Part shown: positions 8,193-14,847 of the stretch, one piece after another
Layout of the letters: the number at the start of each line of letters is the position of its first letter
How positions within the stretch are numbered: position 1 is the stretch's first letter
Source: Buttiauxella massiliensis
Lineage (GTDB): Bacteria; Pseudomonadota; Gammaproteobacteria; Enterobacterales; Enterobacteriaceae
Assembly (NCBI RefSeq): GCF_902500225.1
Contig: NZ_LR722652.1
Coordinates: 124,001 to 188,000, forward strand
Reading direction: 5' to 3'
Length of the DNA stretch: 64,000 nucleotides
Notes under the pieces: model-generated
The model's input: only the letters and a program-made list of their open reading frames with translations
Database searches by the model: none
What the model was told of the DNA's origin: nothing
Position numbers and translations under genes: made by a program

Positions 8193-8316
8193 CCGCCCCA
8201 AAAAGCGGATGGCCGTGCTGGCTGTCCGCTCTCAAACACTCTCAAATCGCCTCACCGTAAACGCAAAACTGTACAAACGGTTACCCGCGCTGCGTTTACG
8301 GATTATTCACCTCCGT

Positions 8317-8339
8317 GATATGTTATATGATAACAATTC
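8317..8339. promoter_or_regulatory. Putative Zur (zinc uptake regulator) operator
   Basis: The 15-bp core TGTTATATGATAACA (8321-8335) is nearly palindromic. Over the 23-bp window it matches, by hand, 19 positions of the enterobacterial Zur consensus as I recall it (GAAATGTTATA ... TATAACATTTC). It ends 25 bases before the start codon of the first SPFH gene, so a bound repressor would block transcription of the four-gene operon. It does not fit a Fur box (no GATAATGATAATC repeats). The match is seen in sequence; the regulator assignment is inference. Confidence 0.65.
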
Positions 8340-8363
8340 AACCTCAGCGACACCGCCTTTCAA

Positions 8364-10313
8364 ATGACTGAACCCACGCAATGTTCGCCGTTTAGCTCTC
8401 AGGCTCGATATTCTTTAGCGTCCTCGCAGGCCATGCTCGCCGCAAGAGTGGTTTTCGGGTTAGGTACAGCGATTTTTTTGATGCTGGTTATGGCGCTGCT
8501 CGCGCATATTTTCGAGTCATCTTCCCGCTGGCCTGCGCTATTAAGTAACAACGCCGCCGTGCTGATTTTATTGGCTGTCGCGTGGTATAACGCCCAGCGA
8601 ATTTGCCAGTGGCGTGCGATTATCTTCGCGCCAACGCTCAAACCTGAAGACGCCGCAGAAACCGAACCTTTGCCGATGATTTATCAGCGGCTTGGCGCAC
8701 TTATTCCCATAAGCTTCAAACGTTTTGGAGCGTTGCTCACAAGCGATGGAATTGGGCTGGCGGCGATGGCCGCCTTCGTATTGTTTGTCGCGCTTTCGGG
8801 CTGGAATACCCATTACGTCGCCCTTGATGAAGGCACTGTGCGTTGGGTGGCGGTCGGGATTATTGCGACGGCGATGTTTGCCACTCTGGTTGCTGAACGT
8901 CATTTGGCTGCAACGGCGAGCGAAGCCTGGCCGGAAGCCAAATTCATTGCGCCGATATTACGTGTAACTCTCGCGGTGCAATTGCTCTCTTTGCCCGCAC
9001 TGATATTCCCGACAACAAACCTCTCATTGTTGGTCAATCTGCCTGCGATCCTTGTGGTGTTGGTAGCAATTGAGTTTCTGCTGCGCGGCCTGTTCTCACT
9101 ATTCACACCACCGGGTGAAGAAGGCTGCGAACCCAAGTTCCTTGCTCAAAGCCAACTGGCAGCACAACTCGTCTGGCCGCCACGCCCACTACTTTTTTTA
9201 CAACGCGAGCTGCACCACCACTTTGGCATCGATTTACGCCAGCTTTGGGCATTCACGGTATTGCGTCGGGCATTTTTACCTGTGCTGGCAGTCATGCTGT
9301 TTTGTGGCTGGCTGTTGACCGGGATGCAGCAAGTTTCCCCAACCCAACGCGGTATTTATGAACGCTTTGGCAAACCGGTTGCCGTGTTGCCATCGGGCCT
9401 GCATTACGGGCTGCCCTGGCCTTTTGGCCAGGTGATACTGGCGGAAAATGGCCAGGTGCATGAGTTAGCGGCCGGAGAAGAAGCCGATACACCTGCGGAG
9501 CCGCTGGCGAATGCCGAAGGGAATGCACCGCAAAGCGCCGATCGCCTGTGGGATGCGATTCATAGCTTTGATAAAGCGCAGATTATTGCCAGCCAAAGCG
9601 GTAACCAGCAAGGTCTGCAAATCATTAATAGCGATGTCCGTTTTATGTGGCGCGTTGGCTTAACCGATAACGCAGCACTGGCGGCAACCTATAACAGCGT
9701 GAATTTGCCAGAGTTGATTCGCAGCGCCGCAAACCAGGTTCTGGTGCATCAGTTTTCCTCGCTGACTCTTGAGCAGGTTTTAGGGGAACAGCGCATCGAA
9801 TTAGCAAGCCAGATTAATCAGGCAGTGCAGCAAAAACTCGATGGCCTGCATAGTGGTGTGGAACTGCTCTCGACCGTCGTCGAAGCTATCCACCCTCCAG
9901 CAGGGGCTGCTGATGCCTTCCATGGTGTACAGGCCGCGCAAATTGCAGCTCAAGCGCTCGTGTCCCGGGAGCGTGGGCATGCAGCAGAGCTGGCCGCCAG
10001 CGCACAAACTACAGCTACCACGCGCCAGAACCAGGCACAGATGAACGCCACCGATGTGACCAGTAAAGCGCAGTCAACGGCTGTGCGTTTTGCCGCACAG
10101 AAACAAGCAGTGGCGAAATCCGGCCAGGTGTTTGTCGATGAATTATGGTTTAGCCAGTTGCACCAGACTTTAGGCAAAAGCCCGTTGTTAATTATCGATC
10201 ACCGTATTGGCGCGACCTCACAGCCCACTATCGACCTGCGCGAGTTTCCCTCGTTAAGCCAGGCAGCACGCAAAGATGCACCTTCCAAACCGACACAGGA
10301 GTCTTCCCGTTGA
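8364..10313 (+). CDS. SPFH/band-7 membrane protein, HflK-like, with extended membrane N-terminus
   Basis: A 649-aa protein. About the first 315 residues hold several hydrophobic segments (for example 25-48, 68-82, 127-145, 158-175, 198-214, 222-242 and 301-318). An SPFH/prohibitin domain then begins at VSPTQRGIYERFGKPVAVLPSGLHYGLPW. The C-terminal ~150 residues are an Ala/Gln-rich coiled-coil-like region, as in HflK. Classical HflK has only one membrane helix, so the long N-terminus is unusual. It is the first of four overlapping genes behind a Zur-like operator. It probably forms an inner-membrane scaffold around the metal ATPase encoded at the end of the operon (inference). The start has no strong ribosome site. 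Confidence 0.8.
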   Translation: MTEPTQCSPFSSQARYSLASSQAMLAARVVFGLGTAIFLMLVMALLAHIFESSSRWPALLSNNAAVLILLAVAWYNAQRICQWRAIIFAPTLKPEDAAETEPLPMIYQRLGALIPISFKRFGALLTSDGIGLAAMAAFVLFVALSGWNTHYVALDEGTVRWVAVGIIATAMFATLVAERHLAATASEAWPEAKFIAPILRVTLAVQLLSLPALIFPTTNLSLLVNLPAILVVLVAIEFLLRGLFSLFTPPGEEGCEPKFLAQSQLAAQLVWPPRPLLFLQRELHHHFGIDLRQLWAFTVLRRAFLPVLAVMLFCGWLLTGMQQVSPTQRGIYERFGKPVAVLPSGLHYGLPWPFGQVILAENGQVHELAAGEEADTPAEPLANAEGNAPQSADRLWDAIHSFDKAQIIASQSGNQQGLQIINSDVRFMWRVGLTDNAALAATYNSVNLPELIRSAANQVLVHQFSSLTLEQVLGEQRIELASQINQAVQQKLDGLHSGVELLSTVVEAIHPPAGAADAFHGVQAAQIAAQALVSRERGHAAELAASAQTTATTRQNQAQMNATDVTSKAQSTAVRFAAQKQAVAKSGQVFVDELWFSQLHQTLGKSPLLIIDHRIGATSQPTIDLREFPSLSQAARKDAPSKPTQESSR

Positions 10314-11293
10314 GCCATTCACATCATCACGGTTGCAGTAGCGGTTGCCACCACAGCCACCATTCTGACGCTCCTGTAACAAAAGCCTGGAAGCGCATTG
10401 CTGGCGCAAGTGCGCTGGTGCTCATTCTTGCCGCCGCCGCAAGCCTTGTGCAGGTTCGCTCTGGCGAATCGCTGATTATTACTCGGTTCGGTAATCCGGT
10501 ACGCGTACTGCTCAAGCCAGGTCTTGCGTGGCGCCTGCCCGCACCTTTTGAAATGTCCACCGCCGTCGATCTGCGTCTGCGAACGACTTCGAGCGGCTTG
10601 CAGGATGTGGGCACGCGGGACGGGCTGCGCATCATTGTGCAGTCATATGCGGTCTGGCAGGTTGATAATACCCCTGAGCATGTGCAGCGCTTTATGCGCG
10701 CGGTACAAAATCAGCCCGATGAAGCGGCACGGCAAATTCGTGCTTATCTCGGCTCGGCACTCGAAACCACCGCGAGTGGCTTTACGCTCTCTCAACTGGT
10801 CAATACGGACAGCAAACAAGTGCAGTTAAACCAGTTTGAATCGCATCTGCAGGCGCAAATCAGCCAGCCATTATTGGAAAGCTATGGTATTCGGTTGGTG
10901 CAGGTTGGAACCGAACGCCTGACCCTGCCCGCGGTGACGCTTAGCGCCACAGTCGATAGGATGCGCGCCGAGCGCGAAACCATTGCGACTGAACGCACCG
11001 CTGAAGGCAAACGCGCCGCGGCTGAAATTCGCTCGGCGGCAGAGCGTGATGCTCGCATTGTGGAGGCGACAGCACAGGTTCAGGCAGCAGATATCGAAGC
11101 ACAGTCTCAGGCGCAAGCCGCCGAAATTTATGGCAAAGCTTATGCCAGTTCACCTCAGCTATACAGCCTGTTACGCCAGCTTGATGCGCTCAGCGGCGTG
11201 GTTAATTCCAGCACCCGTCTGGTGTTACGCACTGATGCCGCACCGTTCCGTCTGCTGGTAGAAGGGCCAAAGCTGGATACAACTCATGAGTGA
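10310..11293 (+). CDS. SPFH/band-7 protein, HflC-like, with His/Cys-rich N-terminus
   Basis: A 327-aa protein starting at a TTG codon that overlaps the previous stop (TTGA), with AGGAG about 8 bases upstream. Residues 3-18 contain eight histidines and two cysteines (H3, H5-H7, C9, C13, H14-H15, H17-H18), a clear metal-binding head. A single membrane helix follows (about 28-47), then an SPFH domain (GESLIITRFGNPVRVLLKPGLAW) and an Ala/Glu-rich coiled coil (about 225-275). HflC of E. coli lacks such a head. With the P-type ATPase in the same operon this suggests a zinc-handling scaffold (inference). Confidence 0.82.
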   Translation: MSHSHHHGCSSGCHHSHHSDAPVTKAWKRIAGASALVLILAAAASLVQVRSGESLIITRFGNPVRVLLKPGLAWRLPAPFEMSTAVDLRLRTTSSGLQDVGTRDGLRIIVQSYAVWQVDNTPEHVQRFMRAVQNQPDEAARQIRAYLGSALETTASGFTLSQLVNTDSKQVQLNQFESHLQAQISQPLLESYGIRLVQVGTERLTLPAVTLSATVDRMRAERETIATERTAEGKRAAAEIRSAAERDARIVEATAQVQAADIEAQSQAQAAEIYGKAYASSPQLYSLLRQLDALSGVVNSSTRLVLRTDAAPFRLLVEGPKLDTTHE

Positions 11294-12338
11294 GCATCAC
11301 AAAAATAAACCTGCGGGCCCGTGGACACAGTCAATACGCCTCGCCTTTTACGCACTGTATGCACTGACACTGCTGGCAGCAGCGTCGTGGTTGTTTTCGA
11401 ATATTCGCCAGATACCCGCAGACAGCCGCGCCGTGGTACTGCACTTCGGTGCACAGCAGCGAATTGCCGAATCGGGTTTATTGCTCACCTGGCCGAAGCC
11501 GATTAACGATGTGGTGATGGTTCCGGCACCTGACCGCGTGATTGAACACCACGTTACGGCGCTATTACGCTCGAATGATGCGCTGCATGCAGATGCTCGT
11601 GGCGATAACAGCAGCGATGCACTGGCGGGTTCCGGCTATCTGCTTACTGGTGACTCAGGCGTGGTGCAGTTAGATATCAGCGTGTTTTACCGTGTCGTCA
11701 CGCCAATGGCGTATGTATTGCAGGGCGAACATGTGATTCCGGCTCTCGATCGACTGGTTGAGCGTGCTGCCGTTGCGGTATGTGCCTCGCGCGATCTGGA
11801 TACTATTCTTGTCGCCCGCCCGGAAATGGTCAGCGGCGATTTAAATGTTGCCCAGCAACGCGAACGCCTGCGGGCTGATGTTCAGCACAACGTCGAGCAA
11901 AATTTGCAGCGCCTGGCACAATCAGGCAGTGACCTGGGGATTACTCTTAAGCGGGTTACTGTGCAATCCACTTTGCCGGAAACCACAGTCACCGCATTCA
12001 ATGCGGTATTAACTGCCAGTCAGCAAGCGTCACAGGCAATAGCCACGGCCAATACCGACGCCTCTTTAATTCGCCAGAAATCCACCCAGCTTGCCGACCA
12101 GACACGCCAGACGGCTCAGGCACAGGCCCGCGAACGAGTGGCGAAAGCTCAGTCCGACACGGCAATGGTGAATCGTCTGGCCAAAAGCCCGCACGACCCC
12201 GACTTGTTAGCGCGAGTTTACCGCGAACGCATTGCGGCGATTCTGGCGCAAGCTGAATCCGTCATTACCGTCTCTCCAAAAGATGATGCGAATTTGATTC
12301 TGCAAGCTGCTGGGCAAAAGGAACCTTCGAAACCATGA
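11286..12338 (+). CDS. SPFH/band-7 membrane protein, HflK-like (third member)
   Basis: A 350-aa protein with one N-terminal membrane helix (about 15-38), an SPFH domain beginning near PADSRAVVLHFGAQQRIAESGLLLTWPKP, and a C-terminal coiled-coil region rich in Ala/Gln (about 220-285). Its start overlaps the end of the HflC-like gene by 8 bases, and its stop overlaps the ATPase start. Three different SPFH proteins in one operon suggest a hetero-oligomeric ring like HflKC. Here the partner gene is a metal ATPase rather than ftsH. Confidence 0.8.
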   Translation: MSEHHKNKPAGPWTQSIRLAFYALYALTLLAAASWLFSNIRQIPADSRAVVLHFGAQQRIAESGLLLTWPKPINDVVMVPAPDRVIEHHVTALLRSNDALHADARGDNSSDALAGSGYLLTGDSGVVQLDISVFYRVVTPMAYVLQGEHVIPALDRLVERAAVAVCASRDLDTILVARPEMVSGDLNVAQQRERLRADVQHNVEQNLQRLAQSGSDLGITLKRVTVQSTLPETTVTAFNAVLTASQQASQAIATANTDASLIRQKSTQLADQTRQTAQAQARERVAKAQSDTAMVNRLAKSPHDPDLLARVYRERIAAILAQAESVITVSPKDDANLILQAAGQKEPSKP

Positions 12339-14233
12339 GTACCCACACTGTTAACCCCGGTGGCGCACTGAGCCATCAGGAACAACGGCAGATTACCCGC
12401 CAGTTGATACTGGCATTGATCGCCAGCGGCACATTAATTCTTGGTTTGCTATGGCGTGGTCTGGCACCCGATCAAGTTGCGGTAGCCGATATCTTACTGG
12501 GTGCTGCATCGCTGATGGTCGGCATTCCGGTATTGCGCCACGCCTTTTACAGCCTGCGTTACCCGAGCTTGCATGGCATTACCGATCAACTGGTTGCGCT
12601 AGCGCTAATTGGCTCGTGGGCGACCGGGGATTTGCTTACTGCCGCATTGCTACCGCTGATTATGATCGTCGGCCATATCCTCGAAGAGCGCAGTATGATT
12701 GGTTCGCAAGAAGCGATTGAAGCTCTCAGCAAATTGACCCACAGCCGGGCGCGACGCTTTGATGCAGACGGCAATCTGCATGAAATTGACAACCATGAAC
12801 TGGTGGCTGGTGACATCGTCGAAGTGCGAGCTGGCGACCGGTTACCTGCTGACGGGCGCGTGCTGGAAGGAACGGCAAGCCTGGATACCGCACCGATCAC
12901 GGGTGAATCCGTACCACTGGAAGTAAAACCGGGCATGAACGTTTACGGTGGTGCAATCAATCTTGATGGGCGGTTGCGAATTGAAGTGACGCACATTGGC
13001 GAAACCTCAACACTCGGGCGCGTGGTGGCATTGATGCAAAGTGCCGAGCAAGCCAGCCCGCCGATTACCCGCCTGCTTGAACGTCATGCGGCGCGTTATC
13101 TGCTGCTGGTTTTATTGATTGCCGCCAGCACATGGTTTTTGACGCAAAACGACCAGGCCATGTTGGCGGTACTGGTCGCCGCCTGTCCTTGTGCGCTGGT
13201 GCTTTCCGCGCCTGCAACGTCTATTGCCGGGCTGACCGTTGCCGCACGTCACGGTATTTTGATTCGCGGCGCGGCCTTCCTCGAAGAGTTAGCCGAACTG
13301 AATGCGGTGATTATCGATAAAACCGGCACGCTCACACACGGCAAGCTGCAACTTCATGAACTGATTCCTGAAGCGGGAGAATCGCCGGAAGTTCTGTCTG
13401 CACTGGCGGCGAGCCTTGGTGCCACCAGTAACCACCCGGTCAGCCGTGCGCTGGTCAATATTGCCCCGCAAAACACATGGCCGCAGCTTGAAAATGTGCA
13501 TGAACACCAGGGTTTGGGTATTTCTGCCACTACAGCAGCGGGCGAGGCTTATCTCGGCCGACATGAGCTGTTAAAAACTCAGGTCGCTGATTTACCGGAA
13601 GAACCACCACATGACGGGCCGATAGTTGGGCTGGTACTAGGGGGGCGTTTCCGTGGCTGGATTTTACTGGCCGATAGCCTACGCGACGAAGCGGCCAGTG
13701 CAATGGCGGAGCTGCGTGATCTTGGGCTTAACCATCAACTATTACTGACCGGCGACCGCGAAGCCGTGGCACAACGCATCGCAAAGAACGTAGGGATTAA
13801 CGACGTTATAGCCGGGGCATTACCTGCAGACAAACTCCACCAGGTCAGTGCGCAAATCGACAATGGCTTCAGGCCAATGGTAGTCGGCGATGGCATCAAC
13901 GATTCCCTGGCAATTAAAGCGGGTGTGGTTGGCGTTGCGATGGGTGCAGGTGGCTCGGATATCGCCATGGCATCAGCGGATATTGTATTAATTGGTGGCG
14001 ACTTACGCCGTCTTGGAACCTGCGTGCGCTTAAGCCGCCTGTGCCGTCGCACCTTACAGATGAACGTGCTGATTGGGCTGGGTTGGACGCTGGTGATTGT
14101 CGTCGCCGCCGCATTTGGCTGGCTGGGAGCCTCGGGGGCCGTAATTGCCGCCCTATTGCACAATCTGAGCACACTGCTGGTGCTGGGCAACGCCGGGCGA
14201 TTGTTAAGGTTTGAAGAAAAACTGGGTGGGTGA
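12335..14233 (+). CDS. P1B-type heavy-metal translocating ATPase without HMA domain
   Basis: A 632-aa cation pump with all P-type signatures: ITGES (188-192), membrane CPC (284-286), phosphorylated Asp in DKTGT (Asp328), nucleotide-domain His-Pro (H367), TGD (472-474) and GDGIND (518-523). There is no N-terminal CxxC metal-binding domain. The last helix reads HNLSTLLVLGNAGRLL, whereas zinc/cobalt pumps usually have H(D/E)GxT there, so ion choice is uncertain. It is translationally coupled (ATGA overlap) to three SPFH genes behind a Zur-like box, pointing to zinc (inference). Transport direction is not evident from sequence. Confidence 0.88.
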   Translation: MSTHTVNPGGALSHQEQRQITRQLILALIASGTLILGLLWRGLAPDQVAVADILLGAASLMVGIPVLRHAFYSLRYPSLHGITDQLVALALIGSWATGDLLTAALLPLIMIVGHILEERSMIGSQEAIEALSKLTHSRARRFDADGNLHEIDNHELVAGDIVEVRAGDRLPADGRVLEGTASLDTAPITGESVPLEVKPGMNVYGGAINLDGRLRIEVTHIGETSTLGRVVALMQSAEQASPPITRLLERHAARYLLLVLLIAASTWFLTQNDQAMLAVLVAACPCALVLSAPATSIAGLTVAARHGILIRGAAFLEELAELNAVIIDKTGTLTHGKLQLHELIPEAGESPEVLSALAASLGATSNHPVSRALVNIAPQNTWPQLENVHEHQGLGISATTAAGEAYLGRHELLKTQVADLPEEPPHDGPIVGLVLGGRFRGWILLADSLRDEAASAMAELRDLGLNHQLLLTGDREAVAQRIAKNVGINDVIAGALPADKLHQVSAQIDNGFRPMVVGDGINDSLAIKAGVVGVAMGAGGSDIAMASADIVLIGGDLRRLGTCVRLSRLCRRTLQMNVLIGLGWTLVIVVAAAFGWLGASGAVIAALLHNLSTLLVLGNAGRLLRFEEKLGG

Positions 14234-14260: not shown

Positions 14261-14289
14261 CTCAATGTAAGATTATGTCTTACATTGAG
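14261..14289. promoter_or_regulatory. Palindromic operator of the parDE-type operon
   Basis: A perfect 12-bp inverted repeat: CTCAATGTAAGA (14261-14272), 5-base loop, TCTTACATTGAG (14278-14289). It lies immediately upstream of the antitoxin start codon. Ribbon-helix-helix antitoxins repress their own operon through such sites, so this is the probable autoregulatory operator. Confidence 0.75.
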
Positions 14290-14294
14290 GGGCT

Positions 14295-14564
14295 ATGATG
14301 GCACGAACAGTTACAGTCGATCTCGGCGATGAACTACGCGAATTTATTGATTCACTAGTAGAATCAGGTGATTACAGAACGCAAAGTGAAGTCTTACGTG
14401 ATGCTTTACGCCTCTTGCGTGAGAAACAAGCAGCATCCAGATTACAGCAGTTACGCGACTTACTTGCTGAAGGCATCAGCAGCGGAGCTCCGCAAATCTG
14501 GGAACAGGATACTTTTCTACAAAGGATGAAAGAAAAGGTGAAATCAAGGGATGAGAACAATTGA
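14295..14564 (+). CDS. ParD-like type II antitoxin (ribbon-helix-helix)
   Basis: An 89-aa protein. The N-terminus MARTVTVDLGDELREFIDSLVESGDYRTQSEVLRDALRLL is a ribbon-helix-helix DNA-binding domain of the ParD/CC2985 type. The C-terminal part, which wraps the toxin, is charged. Two consecutive ATGs are possible (14295 or 14298). It overlaps the toxin gene by 14 bases. It binds and neutralises the ParE-like toxin and represses the operon, probably at the palindrome at 14261-14289. Confidence 0.9.
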   Translation: MMARTVTVDLGDELREFIDSLVESGDYRTQSEVLRDALRLLREKQAASRLQQLRDLLAEGISSGAPQIWEQDTFLQRMKEKVKSRDENN

Positions 14565-14847
14565 ACTAACACCGAAGGCGTCTGAGGATCTTGAATCTAT
14601 CTGGTTGTATAGCTTTGAGCGCTACGGAGAGGCAAAAGCGGATAGTTACATCACGCGCTTTTCAGATATTTTCAATGCTCTTGCGTTACATGATATCGGC
14701 ACGCCAAGACCTGAATTAGGTGACGGTATTTGTTCGCTGCCGATAGAGCAACATGTCATTTTCTTTCTCTCTGCTCAGACGAGTATTACGGTAATTCGTG
14801 TACTCAGCCATGCGCAGGATGCGACCCGGCATCTTTCCTGGTATTAG
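14551..14847 (+). CDS. ParE/RelE-superfamily toxin
   Basis: A 98-aa protein with the ParE-family layout: N-terminal LTPKASEDLESIWLYSFERYGEAKADSYI and C-terminal ITVIRVLSHAQDATRHL. ParE toxins inhibit DNA gyrase; other members of the fold cleave mRNA on the ribosome, so the target is not certain from sequence. It overlaps the antitoxin gene. The pair closes the accessory block just before the conserved ytfL gene and could stabilise it (inference). Confidence 0.9.
   Translation: MRTIELTPKASEDLESIWLYSFERYGEAKADSYITRFSDIFNALALHDIGTPRPELGDGICSLPIEQHVIFFLSAQTSITVIRVLSHAQDATRHLSWY

Follow-up and report, generated by a model that had tools for sequence, protein, structure and literature searches.

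An HmtA-type metal ATPase encoded with three SPFH proteins behind a predicted Zur operator in Buttiauxella massiliensis

The closest described relative of the system considered here is the hmtA locus of Pseudomonas aeruginosa (PA2439-PA2434), whose P1B-type ATPase, HmtA, has been reported after Lewinson 2009 as an importer of zinc (Zn) and copper (Cu) (PMC4542158, PMC10393844, PMC8456098). Overproduction of HmtA is described as raising cellular Zn and Cu and as causing hypersensitivity (PMC10393844). The locus has been counted in the Zur regulon. Transcripts of PA2434, PA2435 and PA2437-PA2439 were up 5.6- to 14.4-fold in a znuA mutant, in a study that also noted a weak Zur site at the locus (E 0.11; Pederick 2015, PMC4542158); Zur with Zn bound the PA2439 promoter in a gel shift (Ducret 2021, PMC8531726); the proteins of PA2435 and PA2437-PA2439 were higher in Zn-depleted cells in a 2025 proteome, though not all significantly (PMC11761036); and PA2437-PA2439 appeared in the Zur regulon under N-acetylcysteine, a response read as zinc chelation (PMC9431628). 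Here we set beside this locus an operon found in a stretch of 64,000 nucleotides from Buttiauxella massiliensis (contig NZ_LR722652.1, positions 124,001 to 188,000; hereafter the window), in which three genes for SPFH (Band 7) proteins and one for a P1B metal ATPase overlap in a row on the plus strand (8364-14233). We consider it probable that the operon encodes a Zur-repressed uptake pump for zinc, possibly also for copper, with a private SPFH assembly, and that it is the Buttiauxella version of hmtA.

The first gene (8364..10313) encodes an HflK-like SPFH protein of 649 residues with about six extra N-terminal membrane helices; the second (10310..11293, from a TTG start) an HflC-like SPFH protein of 327 residues with a His/Cys-rich N-terminal head (MSHSHHHGCSSGCHHSHHS); the third (11286..12338) another HflK-like SPFH protein, of 350 residues, matched by the Band_7 and HflK models; and the fourth (12335..14233) an HmtA-type P1B metal ATPase of 632 residues, with CPC at 284-286, DKTGT at 328-332 and HNLST at 609-613. 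Successive genes overlap by 4, 8 and 4 bases. A first-pass annotation of the window had already described four overlapping genes for three SPFH proteins and a P-type ATPase with CPC and DKTGT, and gene calls and Pfam searches agree with it. The genome (4.88 Mb; Enterobacteriaceae) has close relatives in this respect, the first protein being 79-89% identical in nine other Buttiauxella. Orthology with HmtA was judged against the matching locus of a P. aeruginosa-group genome, G684, as a stand-in for PAO1 HmtA; the azurin of G684 is 98% identical to P. aeruginosa azurin, and that of 12 other genomes of the genus 83-88%. The two ATPases are about 70% identical, and HflK, HflC and SPFH genes lie upstream of both in the same order, so that the sequence HflK-like, HflC-like, third SPFH, P1B ATPase is common to the Buttiauxella operon and to PA2439-PA2434. 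Both, moreover, are tied to Zur, the one by its place in the regulon and the other by a predicted operator. They differ in that the G684 locus has a small open reading frame (162 residues) between the third SPFH gene and the pump gene and another (181 residues) after the pump gene, whereas Buttiauxella has the four core genes only, and in the Zur site, which scores 25.1 bits in Buttiauxella and 2.4 in G684, the latter in agreement with the weak site (E 0.11) reported by Pederick 2015 (PMC4542158). Judged by sequence, the Buttiauxella operon is the counterpart of the P. aeruginosa hmtA locus, ordinary in kind and furnished with a much stronger Zur operator than that of G684.

The predicted operator (GATATGTTATATGATAACAATTC, 8317..8339, unstranded) is separated from the first ATG by 24 bases and matches the Zur consensus at 19 of the 22 specified positions, a recount that upholds the 23-bp site with 19 matches noted in the first-pass annotation. 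It was scored with a palindromic matrix, seeded with a Zur palindrome and trained on the regions upstream of znuC (14 genomes), zinT (10) and rpmE2/ykgM (11) in Enterobacteriaceae, the Buttiauxella genome included, together with three promoters of E. coli K-12; of these 38 upstreams, the two of rpmE2 in a pair of Cedecea-group genomes lacked any credible site and were excluded, so that the training set comprised 36 sites (28 distinct), the operon site not among them. Its 25.1 bits compare with 14.2-30.0 (median 24.4) for the training sites scored leave-one-out, with 12.0 for the second-best site in the window and with a maximum of 18.3 in 5 Mb of first-order Markov sequence. A chance palindrome is ruled out by this null together with the conservation across genera described below. 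A Fur box was considered instead and rejected, the best match to the Fur consensus between 8251 and 8365 being 10 of 19 positions. The genome contains a zur gene, and a strict Zur core pattern, written after four of its sites had been seen, matches the 4.88 Mb 8 times (the backward control pattern twice), at 5 places: before zinT, znuC, rpmE2, an AztAB-like zinc ABC transporter and the SPFH/ATPase operon. The transporter site (G000:C33:53319-53333, near position 1501 of locus L227) lies between two divergent gene pairs, one of which encodes an ABC transporter with AztA/AztB as its nearest models, scoring slightly under their curated cut-offs and with its permease truncated where the locus ends; the site probably marks another Zur target of the same genome.

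Conservation points in the same direction. In an alignment of the window with nine Buttiauxella upstreams, identity per column is 95% within the box and 54% outside it. Sites of at least 12 bits occur in 73 of 88 distinct operon upstreams (Buttiauxella 9/9, Cedecea group 7/7, other Enterobacteriaceae 5/7, Pseudomonas 52/65), a score attained by 4 of 4315 control stretches taken from these loci, and in 82 of the 88 no other site in the whole locus scores higher than the upstream one; the species concerned are related, and these counts are not independent events. They omit L204-L205, as well as L011-L016 (the window itself or duplicates of other loci); an earlier count with those duplicates gave 79 of 97 at 12 bits. 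Among the relatives examined in Buttiauxella and the Cedecea group, each of the 16 has a site of at least 16 bits, the box in Pseudomonas is conserved but diverged, and L205, from a genome outside the class, has a site of 11.5 bits at the right place. The first-pass annotation had proposed a matrix score and a comparison of orthologous upstream regions as checks on its site, and both come out in its favor. From these sequences the operon would very probably be repressed by Zur, and since an independent matrix and cross-genus conservation support that control, its induction in zinc starvation, which the first-pass annotation had likewise proposed, is very likely.

The more interesting part of the locus is the SPFH trio that accompanies the pump, and what the present analysis adds is that the pump and SPFH genes travel together. 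The order HflK-like, HflC-like, third SPFH, ATPase is kept in all 84 loci compared (80 genomes and four plasmids), the genomes being the best 80 of 469 relatives of the first protein and the ATPase being cut by a contig end in three loci; eight further loci have the same order in seven cases, the eighth ending at a contig edge. Among 398 genomes sampled across the phylum, the HflK-like gene (E at most 1e-40) was found in 11 and the ATPase orthologue (E at most 1e-110) in the same 11, in a search that scored the best few candidates per genome and may have missed some. For plasmids, among the best 20 of at least 5000 matches, ten records match the ATPase over nearly its full length at 55% or more, and it is these ten that match the HflK-like protein at 39% or more. 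Its distribution within Enterobacteriaceae is patchy, with 14 of 295 genomes carrying it at E of at most 1e-30, and no megablast match to it was found in 20,395 records of E. coli. The operon is richer in G+C (0.54-0.56) than its flanks (0.46-0.52), which suggests that it was acquired from elsewhere. Plasmid-borne copies (L054-L057) occur in Rhizobium, Klebsiella aerogenes, Paraburkholderia and Burkholderia.

All three SPFH proteins pass the Pfam cut-off for Band_7 (E 3.6e-24, 1.2e-28 and 1.4e-17 in gene order), which places them in the SPFH superfamily. Among HflK and HflC models the first and third are best matched by HflK and the second by HflC, and HflK, HflC and QmcA are the relatives of known structure that pass the threshold. 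These likenesses, together with accounts of PA2437-PA2439, or two of them, as FtsH modulators or interactors (PMC9431628, PMC11761036), speak for an alternative in which the trio would be extra modulators of FtsH in zinc starvation, recruiting or restraining that zinc-dependent protease, for example in recycling zinc or sparing membrane transporters, with the pump merely co-regulated. We regard this alternative as unlikely. All three proteins fall below the curated equivalog cut-offs for HflK and HflC (67.7 against 159.4, 101.4 against 134.4 and 94.2 against 159.4 bits); no HflK-like gene lacking the pump turned up among the 398 genomes sampled, whereas FtsH is known to be near universal; and the gene tables of the four plasmid copies, which are incomplete, show no neighboring ftsH. 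What the trio shares with the HflK/HflC of the FtsH cage and with other SPFH proteins is the Band_7 domain, whereas the three paralogues in one operon, the extra membrane helices, the His-rich head and the linkage to a metal pump set it apart. From the genetic linkage we infer that the SPFH proteins probably act on the pump rather than on FtsH, an idea of which we found no account, either as partnership or as contact between SPFH protein and pump, in the passages of open-licence PMC literature searched.

Two features of the trio deserve description in this context. The first protein has seven candidate membrane helices N-terminal to its SPFH domain by hydropathy, in keeping with the multi-helix HflK-like protein of the first-pass annotation, and a low-confidence structure model (mean predicted local distance difference test, pLDDT, 57.3), used for helix positions only, places helices at the same sites, helices 1-6 mostly above 75 and helix 7 below 50. 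The His/Cys-rich head that had been remarked on in the HflC-like protein is plain in its 327-residue translation, and at least five His in the 45 residues before the helix are found in 88 of 93 copies, the Buttiauxella query included. Four of the remaining copies (L055, L206, L207 and L208) have 0 or 1 His there; L206-L208 still carry a Zur-like box of 17.8-24.0 bits.

The pump itself is unusual in its motifs. Pfam reports an E1-E2 ATPase and a HAD hydrolase domain, and no N-terminal heavy-metal-associated (HMA) domain was reported by that search. Of 92 aligned ATPases, the Buttiauxella query included, all 91 that span the CPC site have CPC, and all 89 that span an H-N-x-(S/G)-T motif have the equivalents of H609, N610 and T613. 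P1B-2 exporters such as ZntA are defined by CPC with a membrane Asp and Lys, and ZntA answers to the excess sensor ZntR; P1B-4 pumps are defined by SPC with HEGxT. With the former class the operon pump shares the membrane CPC, DKTGT and overall family, and it is 36% identical to a pump of the same genome that we call ZntA-like from its motifs and length; in contrast to that class, it has Thr585 and His609 where the membrane Lys and Asp of the ZntA-like pump align, no HMA domain was found in it, and a Zur box lies upstream. Its best solved relative is 7qbz (7qc0 alongside), named Cadmium translocating P-type ATPase, a P1B-4 pump; the two have in common a His at the last membrane motif followed, further on, by S-T, but 7qbz has SPC and HEGST where the operon pump has CPC and HNLST. 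Because His609 and Thr585 replace the Asp and Lys of one class, and CPC and HNLST the SPC and HEGST of the other, the pump fits neither P1B-2 nor P1B-4 cleanly. A structure model of the ATPase, likewise poor (mean pLDDT 63.8), was used for helix positions only.

Several observations weigh against a Zur-repressed zinc pump with SPFH partners. Fifteen of the 88 upstreams do not reach 12 bits, the site at the operon start of the P. aeruginosa-group locus scores only 2.4 bits, and a matrix scan found no Zur box before the four plasmid-borne copies, of which that in Paraburkholderia has a gene for a PCu(A)C copper chaperone nearby; on account of these plasmid copies, zinc control is not universal among copies of the operon. 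In P. aeruginosa itself, hmtA mRNA was low and unrepressed by zinc, and the authors suggest a mainly copper role (PMC8531726). A review has Zur binding all zinc-uptake promoters except that of hmtA, citing Ducret 2021 (PMC10393844), an exception in conflict with the PA2439 promoter shift reported in the study cited (PMC8531726), and the same review holds that the import direction of HmtA needs confirmation (PMC10393844). A Klebsiella michiganensis plasmid carries ATPase sequence (55% identity over 62%, in four pieces) and no SPFH genes: the record lists no gene under the ATPase match nor any SPFH gene within 8 kb of it, an HflK-like match is absent from the record, and the pieces look like a remnant. 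The His-rich head, finally, has fewer than five His in 5 of 93 HflC-like copies, four of these with 0 or 1, and is therefore evidently not essential everywhere.

Part of this evidence would suit a pump whose cargo is mainly copper, or both metals, with zinc control exerted through a shared starvation response. HmtA has been reported to take Cu as well as Zn (PMC10393844, PMC8456098), a copper role would explain the zinc-insensitive hmtA mRNA (PMC8531726), and the copper chaperone gene near the Paraburkholderia operon fits with it. We nonetheless give this explanation little weight, in view of the Zur site of at least 16 bits in 16 of 16 Buttiauxella and Cedecea-group relatives, the induction of the P. 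aeruginosa locus by zinc depletion (PMC4542158, PMC11761036) and the H-N-x-(S/G)-T motif, which aligns with the HEGST of Cd-translocating 7qbz and differs from CopA-like residues. Still less probable is a pump that exports metal to the periplasm, loading secreted or periplasmic metalloenzymes or protecting the cell, with Zur control as a form of re-distribution, for although several solved P1B relatives are named exporting or efflux pumps and direction is not readable from sequence alone, repression by Zur at plentiful zinc is the opposite of an exporter's need, HmtA overproduction is reported to raise cellular Zn and Cu and to cause hypersensitivity (PMC10393844), and at positions 585 and 609 Thr and His take the place of the Lys and Asp of the genome's ZntA-like pump.

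Uptake is accordingly the direction that we regard as likely, because of the logic of Zur control and the P. aeruginosa reports. The first-pass annotation had thought this direction surprising for a P1B ATPase under Zur; the control is strongly supported, and the direction is not new, since HmtA had already been reported as an importer. For a Zur-repressed uptake pump with SPFH partners, the following course of events may be proposed. When zinc is sufficient, Zn-loaded Zur on 8317-8339 would cover a probable extended -10 element and block transcription. That element (TGATATGTT, 8316..8324, plus strand) was placed by eye, its hexamer 18 bases after a -35-like TTTACG (8295-8300), a placement that would set the Zur box over the -10; a consensus scan for promoters returned nothing at its threshold. 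When zinc falls, Zur would leave and all four overlapping genes would be expressed, the ATPase then carrying metal from periplasm to cytoplasm alongside ZnuABC. The SPFH trio would most likely assemble in the inner membrane as a hetero-oligomeric ring or cage, enclosing or organizing the pump. Its HflC-like member might bind metal through the His-rich head, which would lie in the cytoplasm given an HflC-type topology, and the head would thereby substitute for the N-terminal metal-binding domain that the ATPase lacks.

It was a membrane-scaffolded zinc pump that the first-pass annotation had envisaged. The association is supported by the tight linkage of SPFH and pump genes (the same 11 of 398 genomes, the same order in 84 of 84 loci), while the physical scaffold is a more tentative matter, and that an SPFH cage actually encloses the pump we think somewhat doubtful. 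A bolder version would make the trio obligatory subunits of the pump, forming a membrane cage around a P1B ATPase whose metal site is a hybrid of CPC and H-N-x-(S/G)-T; we entertain it at somewhat less than even odds, and within it hold in similar reserve the notion that the cage forces or feeds inward transport. If true, the obligatory arrangement would represent a new kind of P-type transport complex and an SPFH-cage function beyond protease control. The direction of HmtA, as noted, is one that a review would like to see confirmed (PMC10393844). In this regard a strong Zur operator kept in several genera offers independent evidence for an uptake role, and the SPFH pairing offers a testable reason for the unusual direction, as well as a clean system for asking what SPFH cages enclose besides FtsH.

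Other features lie on either side of the operon. Upstream of the Zur box is a second block conserved in Buttiauxella (TGTACAAACNGTTACCCNCNCTNCGTTTACG, 8270..8300, plus strand), which includes the -35-like TTTACG and was seen in the alignment of the window with nine Buttiauxella upstreams, although other Buttiauxella copies vary in it; among 227 loci the exact pattern TGTACAAACNGTTACCCNCNCTNCGTTTACG occurs in 12, each a Buttiauxella copy of the operon, several being copies of one genome. The window also has a perfect 11-bp inverted repeat here, CCGTAAACGCA/TGCGTTTACGG (8255-8265/8291-8301), and block and repeat together may possibly mark the site of a second regulator. Downstream of the pump gene, a hairpin of 12 pairs (14261-14289), called terminator-like on the minus strand, precedes a ParD-family antitoxin gene (TIGR02606) and an overlapping gene of 98 residues (14301-14847 for the pair); the latter is ParE-like by position only and had no NCBIfam match. 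Both genes are matched in 3 of 9 Buttiauxella loci, and in the other 6 they are not.

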